Origin: Deltaproteobacteria bacterium
Lineage (GTDB): Bacteria > Desulfobacterota > Dissulfuribacteria > Dissulfuribacterales > UBA3076
Length of the DNA: 5,077 bases
Assembly: GCA_030618205.1 (NCBI GenBank)
Contig: JAUXDR010000097.1
Span: 1-5,077 of the forward strand
Reading direction: 5' to 3'
The notes under the pieces are model-generated. The model saw nothing but the letters and a program-made list of their open reading frames with translations, ran no database searches and was not told the origin of the DNA. The translations under genes and the position numbers were made by a program. Positions 2-5,077 of the stretch are shown piece after piece. Position 1 is the first letter of the stretch. Every line of letters begins with the position of its first letter.

Positions 2-1942
2 CCGGCCCTGGATGCCGGGATGGCTACTTTTTTTGCAGAGGAAATGCATGAGGCTATGCGTTACGTTGAGGAACCCGGCTTTTATGCAAAGACCGAGGAC
101 CCCACAGATGATTGCCTGTGGCTTGGGGCAGCAGATGATGTAATTTTCCGTAAACGCGGCGTAGAGTTTGTCGATGGTACTGCCCCGGGATTTGCGGCAA
201 TACTTGGCACCCCCTCGGATCCGGAGGTGGCTGAAAAAATTGCTTTGGAATTGCAGCAAAAAAACCTCTATATATTCATGCATGATCAGACCGATGGGAT
301 ATCCATGCCGGATCAACTGGCAAAGCAGAACGTACAGATCGGTTGGTCCACACGCCTTGTGCCCTTTGGGCCCACATATACCTCTGCAGTGTTTGCCATG
401 GGCTTTGCCTGCCGCGTTGCCCTTGCCTTTGGCGGCATAAAGCCTGGTGATTTCAAGGGGAACCTGATCTACAACAAGGATCGGACATTTGCCTTTGTTA
501 TTGCATTTGGTCCGGTCTCGGATGAATGGTATGCCAATGCGGCCGGGGCAATAAACTGGGGTTTTCCAACCATATCCGACTGGGATATACCGCAGGTACT
601 ACCTACTGGTATCTGTACTTACGAGCATGTGGTCAGCCAGGTCCCGCACGATGAGATTGTCCAGAAGGCCATAGAGGTAAGGGGACTCAAGGTCACTGTC
701 TCCAAGATCGACATTCCAATGGCTTACGGTCCTGCCTTTGAAGGGGAGCGTGTACGGAAAGACGACCTGTATCTTGAGTGCGGCGGTGGAAGGAGCCTGG
801 GAGTGGAACTTCTGGTCTCCAAAGAAATGGATGAGGTGCAGGACGGGCTGGTCACCGTAGAAGGACCGGAGATGACAGACGTGAAAGAGGGCGCAAAGCT
901 CCCGCTTGCCATACTGGCCGAGGTGGCAGGCCGGCAGATGCAATCTGACTTCGAGCCCATCCTCGAGCGGCAGTTCCACCACCTGATCAATTATGCCCAG
1001 GGGATCATGCACATCGGGCAGCGGAACATAATGTGGCTTAGGGTCAGTAAGGCGGCCATAGAAAAGGGCTTCAAGTTTGAGCATATCGGCCGTATCCTTC
1101 ACGGAAAGATCCATCAGGATTTTGGTGCCATTGTGGATAAGGTACAGGTGAAGATCTATACTGAGGAGGCTCGAGTAAAAGAGGTCATCGATATGGCGAA
1201 GGATGTCTATATCGCCAGGGATGAGCGCCTGGGCTCCATGACGGACGAGAGTGAAGAGATCTTTTATTCCTGTACTCTCTGCCAGTCCTTTGCCCCGAGC
1301 CACGTATGTGTGATTACCCCTGAGCGAGTAGGCATGTGCGGTGCGTATAACTGGCTGGATGGTAAGGCCTCCTTTGAAATCAATCCCACGGGTCCGAATC
1401 AGCCCATACCCAAGGGAGACCTTATCGATGCCAACCTCGGTCAGTGGATTGGTATAAATGATTTTGTTAATAAGGCTTCCAGGGGTAAAGTTGAGCGTGT
1501 CAGTGCCTATAGCCTGATGATAGATCCAATGACCGCCTGCGGCTGCTTTGAATGTATCGCCAGCATGCTTCCCATGTGTAACGGCATAATGATTGTAAAC
1601 AGGGATTACATGGGTATGACCCCGAGCGGAATGAAATTTACCACTCTGGCTGGAATGGTTGGCGGAGGACAGGTTACTCCCGGCTTTCTCGGTGTTTCCA
1701 AGCATTATATCTGTAGCCGGCAGTTTATGAAGGCTGAAGGCGGGCTCAAGCGTGTAGTGTGGATGCCCAAAATACTGAAAGAGGAAATCAGGGATCGCCT
1801 CCAGGAAAGGGCTGAGGAAGAAAATGCCCCCGATCTGGTTGATATGATAGCGGATGATGAAGTGGGTATCACAGAAGACGAAGTGCTCCGTTATATTAAG
1901 GAGAAGGAGCACCCGGCGCTGAGCATGGAAAAAGTGATGTAA
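2..1942 (+). CDS. acsB: Acetyl-CoA synthase (CODH/ACS beta subunit, bacterial type), 5'-truncated by the window edge
   Basis: The enzyme condenses a corrinoid-bound methyl group, CO and CoA to acetyl-CoA at the nickel-iron-sulfur A-cluster, in a cytoplasmic complex with CO dehydrogenase. Numbering from the Met at nt 20, the cluster-binding cysteines are C418, C421, C430 and C440 (FYSCTLCQSFAP...VGMCG) and the distal-nickel CGC motif is C507-G508-C509. These match Moorella AcsB C506, C509, C518, C528, C595 and C597 at a constant offset, from remembered sequence. F424 matches Moorella F512 beside the A-cluster. The region before residue 300 is the N-terminal CODH-docking and CO-tunnel domain, absent from archaeal CdhC. 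The Met at nt 20 is not the true start: the frame is open to the window edge, no ribosome binding site precedes it, and the upstream codons (PALDAG) continue the homology. About 100 N-terminal residues are missing. The stop lies 15 nt before acsC. Confidence 0.96.
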   Translation, partial: PALDAGMATFFAEEMHEAMRYVEEPGFYAKTEDPTDDCLWLGAADDVIFRKRGVEFVDGTAPGFAAILGTPSDPEVAEKIALELQQKNLYIFMHDQTDGISMPDQLAKQNVQIGWSTRLVPFGPTYTSAVFAMGFACRVALAFGGIKPGDFKGNLIYNKDRTFAFVIAFGPVSDEWYANAAGAINWGFPTISDWDIPQVLPTGICTYEHVVSQVPHDEIVQKAIEVRGLKVTVSKIDIPMAYGPAFEGERVRKDDLYLECGGGRSLGVELLVSKEMDEVQDGLVTVEGPEMTDVKEGAKLPLAILAEVAGRQMQSDFEPILERQFHHLINYAQGIMHIGQRNIMWLRVSKAAIEKGFKFEHIGRILHGKIHQDFGAIVDKVQVKIYTEEARVKEVIDMAKDVYIARDERLGSMTDESEEIFYSCTLCQSFAPSHVCVITPERVGMCGAYNWLDGKASFEINPTGPNQPIPKGDLIDANLGQWIGINDFVNKASRGKVERVSAYSLMIDPMTACGCFECIASMLPMCNGIMIVNRDYMGMTPSGMKFTTLAGMVGGGQVTPGFLGVSKHYICSRQFMKAEGGLKRVVWMPKILKEEIRDRLQERAEEENAPDLVDMIADDEVGITEDEVLRYIKEKEHPALSMEKVM

Positions 1943-1957: not shown

Positions 1958-3313
1958 ATGGCACTCACTGGGATAGGAATCCTGAAGATGCTTCCCAAGA
2001 CGAACTGCGGGGAGTGTGGTGTGCCCACCTGTCTGGCCTTTGCCATGAAGGTGGCAGCCGGTCAGGTAGATATAGGCGCATGCCCGCATGTCTCTGATGA
2101 GGTAAAGGAAAAGGTGGGAGAGGCGTCTGCTCCGCCCATCCGGCCTATCACCCTTGGCAGTGGTGATAACATCTTTGAGATGGGAGGAGAGACCTGCCTG
2201 TACCGGCATGAAAAAAGGTTTGAACACCAAACAGGTATTGCAGTCCTGGTCAGGACCGATATGGACGAGGATAATATCGCAGGGCGTTTACAGCGTTTTA
2301 ATAATCTGCGCTATGATCGTGTAGGATTGGAGCTCAAGGCCGACCTGATAGCTATAAGTGATTCCTCCGGGGATGAAGGGGCATTTACTTCTCTGGTGGA
2401 ACGTGTCCGGAACGAGTGCCCTGATGCCGCTCTTATCCTCATGAGCGATCAGGCCGGCTGCCTTGCAGCAGGCGCCAAGGTCTGCGGAGACCACAAGCCC
2501 CTTCTTTACAGTGCTACAAAGAAAAATTCAGAGACTATTGCAGAGACAGCCAGGGAGGCTGGTTGCCCCTTGGCAGTGAAGGGTAAGACCCTGGGAGAGG
2601 CTGCGGAGATCTCAGAGCAGTTACAAAAGGCAGGGATTAAAGACCTTGTCCTGGATACAGGTGCCAGGACTGTAAGGGCTGCATTTGAAGATCAGGTGGC
2701 CATACGCAGGGCTTCTACAAAACACAAGTACAAGGCTCTTGGTTTTCCCACCATCTCTTTCACGTGTGAAATGACCCGGGACCCTCTTCTTGAGACAATG
2801 ATTGCATCGGTTCTGGTGGCCAAGTACGCCGGCATCATAGTTATGTCTGACCTGCAGGGAGATACCCTGTTCCCGCTCCTGCTTGAGCGACTTAATATCT
2901 TTACTGATCCTCAGAGGCCCATGGTGGTAGAGGAGGACATTTATCCAATAAACGGGCCGGACGAGAACTCTCCTGTACTTATTACATGCAACTTCTCCCT
3001 GACTTACTTTATCGTCTCAGGAGAAGTCGAGGGCAGCAAAATCCCATCCTGGCTCCTAATCAAAGATACAGAGGGCCTTTCAGTGCTTACCGCCTGGGCC
3101 GCAGGTAAATTCAGTGCGGATCTAATAGGTGTGTTTGTCAAAAAATCAAACATAGAAGACAGGATCAAACACAGGAACCTGATTATCCCAGGATACCTGG
3201 CCTCTATAAAAGGTGAGCTGGAGGAGGAACTTCCGGATTGGAAGATCCAGATCGGCCCCAGAGAGGCAAGCCATATACCTCCCTTTCTGAGGGACTGGCA
3301 GGCTGAGGTGTAA
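1958..3313 (+). CDS. acsC: Corrinoid iron-sulfur protein large subunit (CFeSP gamma; CODH/ACS complex subunit gamma)
   Basis: AcsC pairs with the small subunit AcsD to form the corrinoid iron-sulfur protein, which carries the methyl group on cobalt from the methyltransferase to acetyl-CoA synthase. The N-terminal domain (about residues 1-60) holds the low-potential [4Fe-4S] cluster motif with C17, C20, C25 and C42 (NCGECGVPTC, then GACP); this cluster reductively reactivates Co(II). A TIM-barrel domain follows at about residues 90-315. The last 120 or so residues form the corrinoid-binding domain, with family-typical stretches such as SKIPSWLLIKDTEG, LTAWAAGKF, LIIPGYLA and IGPREASHIP. At 451 residues it matches the roughly 446 of Moorella AcsC, so it is full length. 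The ATG at 1958 has a strong ribosome binding site and gives the usual N-terminus. Only 2 nt separate it from acsE. It could be labelled cdhE by archaeal nomenclature. Confidence 0.96.
   Translation: MALTGIGILKMLPKTNCGECGVPTCLAFAMKVAAGQVDIGACPHVSDEVKEKVGEASAPPIRPITLGSGDNIFEMGGETCLYRHEKRFEHQTGIAVLVRTDMDEDNIAGRLQRFNNLRYDRVGLELKADLIAISDSSGDEGAFTSLVERVRNECPDAALILMSDQAGCLAAGAKVCGDHKPLLYSATKKNSETIAETAREAGCPLAVKGKTLGEAAEISEQLQKAGIKDLVLDTGARTVRAAFEDQVAIRRASTKHKYKALGFPTISFTCEMTRDPLLETMIASVLVAKYAGIIVMSDLQGDTLFPLLLERLNIFTDPQRPMVVEEDIYPINGPDENSPVLITCNFSLTYFIVSGEVEGSKIPSWLLIKDTEGLSVLTAWAAGKFSADLIGVFVKKSNIEDRIKHRNLIIPGYLASIKGELEEELPDWKIQIGPREASHIPPFLRDWQAEV
3305..3310 (+). promoter_or_regulatory. Ribosome binding site of acsE inside the end of acsC
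   Basis: GAGGTG lies 5 nt before the ATG at 3316 and sits in the last codons of acsC. With only 2 nt between stop and start, it points to translational coupling and to the ATG at 3316 as the real start. Confidence 0.6.
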
Positions 3314-3315
3314 TC

Positions 3316-4206
3316 ATGTATGTCCAATGCATAGCTGAAAGCATAAATATCATGGGTACCCGGATTGGGAAGGCCATGAAGGAGCGCGATCTTGGGCCGA
3401 TTCAGTTGATGGCCAATGAAGAAGTGGCGGACGGGGCGGATTTTCTGGATCTGAACATCGGGCCTGCCAGAAAGGAAGGGCCTAAGTTAATGCCCTGGAT
3501 AGTCAATGTTACAGAGGAAATAACCGATTGCCCTCTGTCACTTGACACCACAAATGCAGATGCATTGATTGCCGGCATGAAGGCAGCCGGGAATCCCCGG
3601 ATCCACGTAATGAATTCTATTTCGCTACAGCCTGAGAGAATGGAAAAGCTTATACCTGTAGCTGCTGAGACAGGCTGTAACGTTGTAGGCCTGCTCTGGG
3701 GAGTGGACGGTATGCCCAGGGATTCTAACGAGAGGGCAGCCATGACTGTAGACCTCTCCATGGCCATGAACGAGGCCGGGATCCCAAACGAGAAGATTCT
3801 GATAGATCCAATTGCCACCCCGATAACCTTGGGATCAGATCAGGTATTGAGCGGATTGGAGTTCATGGGCATGTTGCCTGAGATCGCTCCGGGCGTAAAG
3901 TCCATAATAGGCCTCTCAAATGTCTCAAACGGTGTTTCTGCTGAGAAACGTCCATATCTCAACCGGGCGTTTCTGGCCATGTTAATGAAACATGGATTAT
4001 GGTCGGCCATTGTCGATACATATGATCATGAGTTAATTAAACTGGCCCACGGGCAAATGCCTGAGCTGCTGAAGCTGGTTCACGATATTATGGACGAAAA
4101 CGAACCTGACCCCGGTGAGCTTTCTCCCAAGGAAATGGAATACTACAAGACGACCAGAGTCCTGATGGGAAAGACCATATTCTCCGAGTCCTGGCTGGAA
4201 CTATAA
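3316..4206 (+). CDS. acsE: Methyltetrahydrofolate:corrinoid/iron-sulfur protein methyltransferase (MeTr), pterin-binding TIM barrel
   Basis: Likely transfers the methyl group of 5-methyl-tetrahydrofolate to Co(I) of the corrinoid protein made from acsC and acsD, linking the folate branch to acetyl-CoA synthase. It is one pterin-binding TIM-barrel domain of the dihydropteroate synthase superfamily. Against Moorella AcsE the pterin-site residues are present: D77 (LSLDTTN; D75), N100 (MNS; N96), D164 (LIDP; D160) and N202 (GLSNVS; N199). Further matches are FLDLNIGPA at 43-51 and RPYLNRAFLAM at 212-222. Two differences stand out. The usual N-terminal IGERIN reads IAESIN, and the protein has 296 residues instead of about 262, because of roughly 30 extra residues at about 245-280 (rich in Asp, Glu and Pro). 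Automated tools may call it dihydropteroate synthase; its place behind acsB-acsC argues for methyl transfer. Confidence 0.9.
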   Translation: MYVQCIAESINIMGTRIGKAMKERDLGPIQLMANEEVADGADFLDLNIGPARKEGPKLMPWIVNVTEEITDCPLSLDTTNADALIAGMKAAGNPRIHVMNSISLQPERMEKLIPVAAETGCNVVGLLWGVDGMPRDSNERAAMTVDLSMAMNEAGIPNEKILIDPIATPITLGSDQVLSGLEFMGMLPEIAPGVKSIIGLSNVSNGVSAEKRPYLNRAFLAMLMKHGLWSAIVDTYDHELIKLAHGQMPELLKLVHDIMDENEPDPGELSPKEMEYYKTTRVLMGKTIFSESWLEL

Positions 4207-4244: not shown

Positions 4245-5077
4245 ATGGCTAAAGGGATAACTGTTACTGAGTTCATCTTGTCCGAACAAAAAGGTCGGCC
4301 GGAGGCAACGGGTGCCTTTACATCCATTCTGTCAGAATTGACAGTGGCAGCCAAGATCATCGCGCAAAAAGTGGACAAGGCAAACTTATCCGATGCACTT
4401 GATACTATTGAGTCAGTAAGTGGTGACGAAGGAGTCGTACAAAAGTTACACGAATTTGCCAACTCTACAATTGTGAACCGCCTCAGTCACGTGGGATGCT
4501 TGAGTTGCATGGCCTCCAAGATGAATACGGATTTGATACCTATCCCCAAAAAGTATGCCAAGGGTAACTACATATTGATCTTTGATCCCCTGGGGGGTGT
4601 TACCAATATTGATGTACCTGTTGCAATCGGCTCAATTTTCTCAATCTTCAAGAAACGAGGCCTTGGAGAATTCGGCATGATGGCGGACGCCTTGCAGCCC
4701 GGTTGTGAGCAGGTGGGAGCAGGTTATTGTATTTATGGATCAAGCACTATGATGGTCTACACAACAGGAGATGGGGTTCATGGGTTTACGCTGCAACCAA
4801 GTATCGGCGAGTTTCTTCTTTCCCATGAGAACATTCGCATACCCAAAAAAGGCAAGACTTACAGCGTCAATGAGGGGAACTATTATTTCTGGGAGGAGAA
4901 TATCCAGGACGCGATCGAGTACTTTAAGACGCCTGACTTAAAAACAGGCCGTCCTTACACAGCGCGTTATACAGGCTCTTTTGTAACGGATTGTCACCGG
5001 AATCTCCTGAAAGGTGGAATATACATGTATCCGGAGAGCTCAAAGGATCCTTCAAAGCCCCATGGAAAACTGATGCT
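4245..5077 (+). CDS. Class I fructose-1,6-bisphosphatase homologue lacking most catalytic metal-site residues (probable pseudoenzyme), 3'-truncated by the window edge
   Basis: The 277 visible codons align along their length with E. coli Fbp and pig FBPase (from memory), with few gaps. Kept: ATG.FTSILSE at 21-31, DPL at 114-116, NIDV at 121-124, LQPG at 150-153, YGSSTMMVYTTGDGVH at 164-179, GKTYSVNEGN at 203-212, and HRNLLKGGIYMYP at 251-263. Sugar-phosphate contacts N209, R241, Y242, Y262 and K275 (pig N212, R243, Y244, Y264, K274) are present. The catalytic side is not: pig D74 is H69, E97 is K92, E98 is M93, D121 is G117, S123 is V119 and R276 is M277; only D118 (D114) remains. Family knowledge says these residues bind the metals, activate water and hold the 1-phosphate, so I infer that it lacks ordinary FBPase activity. 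The frame is unbroken, which argues against a decaying gene. It may bind sugar phosphates as a sensor or regulator, or have another activity. The last 55 or so residues lie outside the window. Confidence 0.9.
   Translation, partial: MAKGITVTEFILSEQKGRPEATGAFTSILSELTVAAKIIAQKVDKANLSDALDTIESVSGDEGVVQKLHEFANSTIVNRLSHVGCLSCMASKMNTDLIPIPKKYAKGNYILIFDPLGGVTNIDVPVAIGSIFSIFKKRGLGEFGMMADALQPGCEQVGAGYCIYGSSTMMVYTTGDGVHGFTLQPSIGEFLLSHENIRIPKKGKTYSVNEGNYYFWEENIQDAIEYFKTPDLKTGRPYTARYTGSFVTDCHRNLLKGGIYMYPESSKDPSKPHGKLM

Follow-up and report, generated by a model that had tools for sequence, protein, structure and literature searches.

The window, that is, the whole 5,077-nucleotide stretch of DNA analysed here, ends in a gene for a homologue of class I fructose-1,6-bisphosphatase (FBPase), which we call pFBP. 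We hold this protein, with a probability of roughly 0.6, to be a catalytically dead FBPase paralogue that serves as a dedicated partner of an NAD-linked selenocysteine formate dehydrogenase (FDH) made of NuoE, a HydB-like NuoF and FdhA. At this FDH, pFBP is probably a ligand-sensing or structural partner. The window is a piece of a Wood-Ljungdahl operon in which acsB, acsC, an acsE-like gene and the FBPase homologue follow one another on the forward strand, with intergenic gaps of 15, 2 and 38 bases:

2-1942, forward strand: AcsB, acetyl-CoA synthase (alpha/beta), 5' end cut (Pfam/NCBIfam profiles).
1958-3313, forward strand: AcsC, large (gamma) subunit of the corrinoid iron-sulfur protein, CFeSP (Pfam/NCBIfam profiles).
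3316-4206, forward strand: AcsE-like methyl-H4folate:CFeSP methyltransferase (reading frame and Pfam/NCBIfam profiles).
4245-5077, forward strand: pseudo-FBPase (pFBP), first 277 codons of about 336, the 3' part lying beyond the window (reading frame, Pfam and homologues).

The pFBP reading frame (4245-5075, forward strand) encodes 277 amino acids and is still open where the window stops. Most full-length relatives have 336 residues, as does the complete protein on the nearest genome contig (L001), which is 97% identical over the 277 residues. The AcsE-like methyltransferase (3316-4206) scores under the NCBIfam cut-offs, with 195 of 259 and 159 of 370 bits. An Rfam scan of the window and of loci L003 and L007 returned no match over the gathering scores.

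A reading made from the sequence alone had called the protein an FBPase homologue, and a profile search that included the C-terminus bears this out: pFBP passes the Pfam models FBPase (PF00316, 171.4 bits) and FBPase_C (PF18913, 68.9 bits), whose curated cut-offs are 34.8 and 27, respectively. NCBIfam class 1 FBPase gave nine matches to the truncated query protein, all under cut-off (best 325.5 versus 368). The AlphaFold model of pFBP has a pLDDT of 79.3 and a pTM of 0.84, with low confidence at residues 119 to 126, beside the altered site, and Foldseek found it to resemble FBPase structures from the PDB, with query TM-scores of 0.82-0.86 among the 50 matches listed. These comparisons confirm that pFBP keeps the FBPase fold, as predicted by a model of moderate confidence that comprises a single chain without complexes. 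The protein can be aligned end to end with class I FBPases (PF00316/PF18913) and keeps their 6-phosphate contacts, whereas its clade differs from them by E97K, R276M, the change of D121 to G or A, and the loss of D74, E98, S123 and N64. In the list below H69, K92, M277, N209 and the like follow the numbering of the window protein, and D74, E97, N212 and the like that of the pig enzyme:

4449-4451, forward strand: H69 (CAC) replacing the catalytic D74 (codon; the position drifts in the clade).
4518-4523, forward strand: K92-M93 (AAG, ATG) replacing the metal ligand E97 and E98 (codons and clade alignment).
4584-4601, forward strand: DPLGGV replacing DPLDGS, with D118 kept, D121 changed to G117 (GGG) and S123 to V119 (GTT) (codons and clade alignment).
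4869-5069, forward strand: 6-phosphate and sugar contacts N209, R241, Y242, Y262 and K275 retained (codons; 111-114 of 114 in the clade).
5073-5075, forward strand: M277 (ATG) replacing the 1-phosphate ligand R276 (codon; M in 114 of 114).

The six substitutions that the sequence-only reading had described (D74, E97, E98, D121, S123 and R276 to H, K, M, G, V and M) are exact by codon, and the five contacts that it gave as retained are present in the window and in 111-114 of the 114 clade members. Its residue numbering is also right, and the pig sequence used here for the pig numbering equals PDB 1cnq_A over 337 of 337 residues. According to PMC3785478, the metal ligands of class I FBPase are E97, D118, D121 and E280, and the phosphate is contacted by the G122/S123 backbone and R276.

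The replacements had been held not to be random, and they are indeed common to 114 of the best 120 homologues (out of 7999 matches), all 114 of which carry K97; the remaining 6 are canonical at these sites. None of the 114 has D74, E98, D121 or S123 and, with E97 and R276 absent throughout as well, six of the residues that mark a class I FBPase enzyme are missing from every listed pFBP. Position 74 is occupied by V, T, R, Q, I, M, L and others, position 98 by K, M, T, R, I and others but never by E, position 123 by I, V or L in 110 of 114, and position 121 by G in 111 and by A in 3. M276 is fixed (114/114), as is T100 among the 114 listed members; locus L132 has A at position 100. The catalytic dynamic loop, whose alignment is less sure, has N64 in 40 of 40 canonical sequences, and at least 112 of the 114 clade members carry S, G, T, D or A there. 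The earlier description of the metal site as dismantled holds for E97 and D121, which are gone in all 114 proteins, and overstates the case for D118 and E280, which are kept in 113 and 114, respectively. The metal site is therefore not wholly stripped, and some cation binding is possible. With E97, E98, D121 and R276 missing, pFBP is, judged from the residues, very unlikely to catalyse the metal-dependent phosphoryl transfer of canonical FBPase.

The drift of D74 and E98, set beside the fixation of K97, T100 and M276 and the near fixation of G121, suggests that the old metal site was rebuilt rather than simply decayed. This pattern, K97, T100 and M276 being found in 114 of the 114 listed proteins and G121 in 111, together with the retained D118 and E280, could also be that of a neofunctionalised enzyme, in which K97, T100, M276, G121, D118 and E280 would support another, perhaps metal-free, chemistry on a phosphorylated substrate near formate/C1 metabolism. 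We regard such an enzyme as unlikely, as the dynamic-loop residue N64 is lost as well and no FBPase-fold chemistry is known to us that uses K97/T100/M276/G121 together with D118/E280.

The sugar-phosphate pocket of pFBP is nearly invariant. In pig numbering, N212, R243 and Y244 are present in all 114 listed clade members, Y264 in 113 and K274 in 111, and the 6-phosphate pocket has a mean entropy of 0.06 bits, whereas the other columns average 0.58 bits with a median of 0.33. In canonical FBPase, R243 reaches the pocket of the neighbouring subunit. The retention of this pocket, R243 included, suggests that pFBP may dimerise like FBPase and still bind a 6-phosphate sugar. The AMP effector site is roughly that of the canonical relatives: in an alignment of 138 rows, near-duplicates included, the pig residues K112 and E29 are missing in the pFBP clade and often missing in the canonical relatives too, and K42 and E192 are retained in pFBP.

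A tree was built from 36 pseudo and 40 canonical rows, and in it a single branch separates all pseudo rows from the others. A clade produced by the catalytic residues alone was rejected as an explanation, since a tree rebuilt after removal of 21 catalytic columns had the same outcome, with a support of 100/100. Locus L106 was left out of both trees, and L038, L039 and L106, for which no FBPase frame was picked, were left out of the canonical-residue check. The stem of the pseudo clade is long (0.41 changes per column) and, when the tree is rooted on the gammaproteobacterial rows, it sits among canonical FBPases, including those of the same host genomes. Thirteen chosen pFBP pairs gave dN/dS values of 0.057-0.157. 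The values for nine canonical pairs were 0.020-0.301, eight of them at or below 0.073, a tenth pair being saturated. pFBP is thus under strong constraint, slightly weaker than that on the working enzyme.

A one-off mutant or a sequencing error was discarded, as relatives at 97-64% identity carry the same losses. It is hardly conceivable that pFBP is a decaying pseudogene or an assembly error, which the lost catalytic residues might indicate: no pFBP match of two class-wide surveys has an internal stop, the protein is found across many assemblies and several source databases, and dN/dS is low, on which evidence the pseudogene reading was dropped. The sequence-only reading had asked whether the substituted variants form a clade under selection, and had named their occurrence in this one sequence only as the case against itself. 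They are shared clade-wide, they group as one clade with the same losses at 100/100, and their dN/dS (0.057-0.157) indicates purifying selection. Together with a pocket that is more conserved than other columns, these observations support, at the sequence level, the view of pFBP as a pseudoenzyme. That reading, made on the protein only, missed both the FDH pairing described below and the fact that many of the genomes also encode a canonical FBPase.

The surroundings of pFBP were compared by tblastn in 27 loci (the window, L001-L007 and L151-L169). The nuoE gene lies directly downstream of pFBP on the same strand in 25 of them, the window and L169 ending before it, and the gap between the two is estimated at 8 or 9 bases in 13 of the 25 loci and at 4 to 225 bases in the others. 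Wherever the contig reaches, nuoF and fdhA come next. The best PDB matches of the neighbouring NuoF are HydB-type subunits (7t2r, 7q4v, 8a6t), a likeness to the NAD modules (HydB/NuoF) of electron-bifurcating hydrogenases and FDHs. The fdhA gene of L003 contains an in-frame UGA (L003:14598-14600, in RLUHAPTVAGL) that was read as selenocysteine, at the place expected for this residue. In simple calls of open reading frames the UGA splits fdhA in two; L156 has instead one frame of 934 aa. To our knowledge, no FDH complex has an FBPase-like subunit.

The pairing is also seen across genomes. In the class of genome G003, pFBP is present in 10 of 46 genomes and a matching NuoF (at least 77% identity to that of L003) in 9, all of them pFBP carriers. 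In a draw of 389 genomes from the class of G007, pFBP was found in 15, including G302, where it is an 87-residue fragment that still has M276 and was read separately from the site table. A matching NuoF (at least 70% identity to that of L007, the next best being at most 60%) occurs in the same 15 genomes, three candidates per genome having been scored and very strong matches only being listed. Thus, pFBP is present in 24 of the 24 genomes with this NuoF type in the two classes (46 and 389 genomes), a count over related genomes: in one class the carriers are G302 and members of a single family (14 of its 22 genomes), and in the other they belong to a single lineage. G001, the sole pFBP genome without this NuoF, has a contig that ends inside nuoE. 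Eight contexts of distant NuoF paralogues at 50-60% identity (L232-L239) were inspected, and pFBP occurs in none. G320 has two pFBP copies, each with NuoE-NuoF-FdhA. The gene order with nuoE and the co-occurrence suggest that pFBP is a subunit or regulator of the FDH, and the linkage could also reflect hitchhiking.

AcsE lies upstream of pFBP in 19 of the 27 loci, the window included, and pFBP might accordingly sense sugar phosphates for, or scaffold, the whole Wood-Ljungdahl operon (the CODH/ACS side) rather than the FDH in particular. Such a role is improbable and was dropped as the main reading: AcsB is present in 41 of the 46 genomes of the G003 class versus 10 for pFBP, and two genomes keep pFBP with FDH away from acsB or without it. 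In G044 the acs operon is on contig C7 without pFBP, while contig C3 ends with pFBP-NuoEF-FdhA; in G046, where AcsB has no match, pFBP-NuoEF-FdhA is kept all the same. In G046, pFBP is preceded by the C-terminal 31 residues of AcsE (L165:10352-10444, reverse strand, 94% identical), which sit behind a gene with an HdrC-like match and a MetF match. Read from the sequence, this remnant appears to be the trace of a lost or rearranged acs operon.

Upstream of acsB, L003 has a single frame of about 1000 aa (L003:2336-5344) in which a methylenetetrahydrofolate reductase domain is fused to TPR-like repeats and a CdhD/AcsD domain. The fused MetF/AcsD frame is also present in L002, L004, L168 and L240, its domains having been read in L003; the other class has one gene for MetF and another for AcsD.

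Conservation between the two classes was compared for the proteins of the locus. The mean between-class identity (3-5 by 5-9 genomes) is 72.6% for pFBP, 69.1% for NuoE, 70.1% for NuoF and 71.0 and 68.3% for FdhA, and 65.0% for AcsB, 57.8% for AcsC and 45.6% for AcsE. AcsE is thus only 46% identical between classes, though its neighbours are at 58-73%. Over the same 4 by 7 genomes, pFBP is 73.0% identical between classes versus 62.2% for canonical FBPase, whereas within classes canonical FBPase is higher, with 87.9 and 88.0% versus 83.4 and 87.3% for pFBP. The high between-class identity of pFBP could have arisen if a pFBP-FDH module had moved laterally from one class to the other.

pFBP is a restricted trait. 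The source names of the listed homologues are those of Deltaproteobacteria, Desulfobacterales, Desulfobacteria and Thermodesulfobacteriota metagenome-assembled genomes. In the family of G007, 14 of 22 genomes carry pFBP. The phyla of G003 and G007 were taken as one, the listed genomes being shared, and in the phylum draws of 395 genomes pFBP was found only in G003 and G007 themselves; active-site residues were read in 10 of 11 loci, all canonical, with L225 left out, and the remaining matches were judged by their identity of at most 62%.

Many carriers also have a canonical enzyme. A second class I FBPase gene, of 52-63% identity, is present in 15 of 25 pFBP genomes; its residues are canonical in the 12 that were checked, and those of G043, G044 and G046 were assigned by their 52-55% identity only. 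In G002-G005, pFBP and the canonical gene lie on separate contigs. GlpX (PF03320) was found in 0 of the 25 pFBP genomes, and an FBPase of the PF01950 type is over cut-off in 9, two of the nine being partial matches. In the other 10 carriers, whose assemblies may be incomplete, the thresholds used revealed no second class I FBPase; three of these (G007, G201 and G418) have the PF01950 type, which is unrelated to class I, so that 7 of 25 carriers show no other FBPase. The second gene in 15 genomes, R243 in 114 of the 114 listed proteins and the kept K42 and E192 would fit a pFBP that joins the intact FBPase tetramer of its host, the mixed oligomers tuning the canonical enzyme. We give this little credence, as pFBP shares only 51-63% identity with the canonical protein of the same genome (11 genomes), 10 of 25 carriers lack a second class I FBPase at these thresholds, and the FDH pairing is left unexplained.

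For a pFBP dedicated to the FDH, the following course of events may be proposed. A single duplication of an FBPase gene would have given rise to pFBP, which, judging from its residues, would no longer hydrolyse fructose-1,6-bisphosphate. An FBPase-like oligomer of pFBP would contact the FDH/NuoEF complex, and the activity or assembly of the FDH would change when the residual pocket takes up a sugar phosphate or the effector site takes up AMP. The formate/CO2 flux of the Wood-Ljungdahl pathway would in this way be tied to the state of gluconeogenesis. A ligand that modulates the activity or assembly of the FDH offers the most economical mechanism; with a pure scaffold, the nearly invariant pocket would be left unexplained. 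A more specific version, in which pFBP is a metabolite-sensing FDH subunit that reads fructose-6-phosphate (or AMP) and gates the conversion of CO2 to formate at the entry of the methyl branch, is tentative and somewhat doubtful. If true, it would couple gluconeogenesis directly and allosterically to CO2 fixation.

Metabolic pseudoenzymes that regulate another enzyme resemble pFBP in having lost catalytic residues while keeping a ligand pocket, and pFBP shares their strong conservation; it differs in that its likely partner is an unrelated redox complex and not a paralogous enzyme. A literature search, with most subscription papers and bioRxiv preprints beyond its scope, returned no paper that describes a pseudo-FBPase or this FDH pairing and no FBPase example among metabolic pseudoenzymes, and the word 'bisphosphatase' is absent from the accessible text of PMC10553843.

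The named homologues among those listed are annotated as 'class 1 fructose-bisphosphatase' or 'fructose-1,6-bisphosphatase I' in their source databases. When the metabolism of uncultured carbon-fixing bacteria is reconstructed from such annotations, a protein that is probably inactive may be taken for their gluconeogenic enzyme. pFBP and the FDH are a definite pair of proteins that can be put to the test. Should they indeed be partners, pFBP would be a new formate dehydrogenase component, and a metabolic pseudoenzyme would point to hidden regulation that links sugar synthesis with CO2 fixation.
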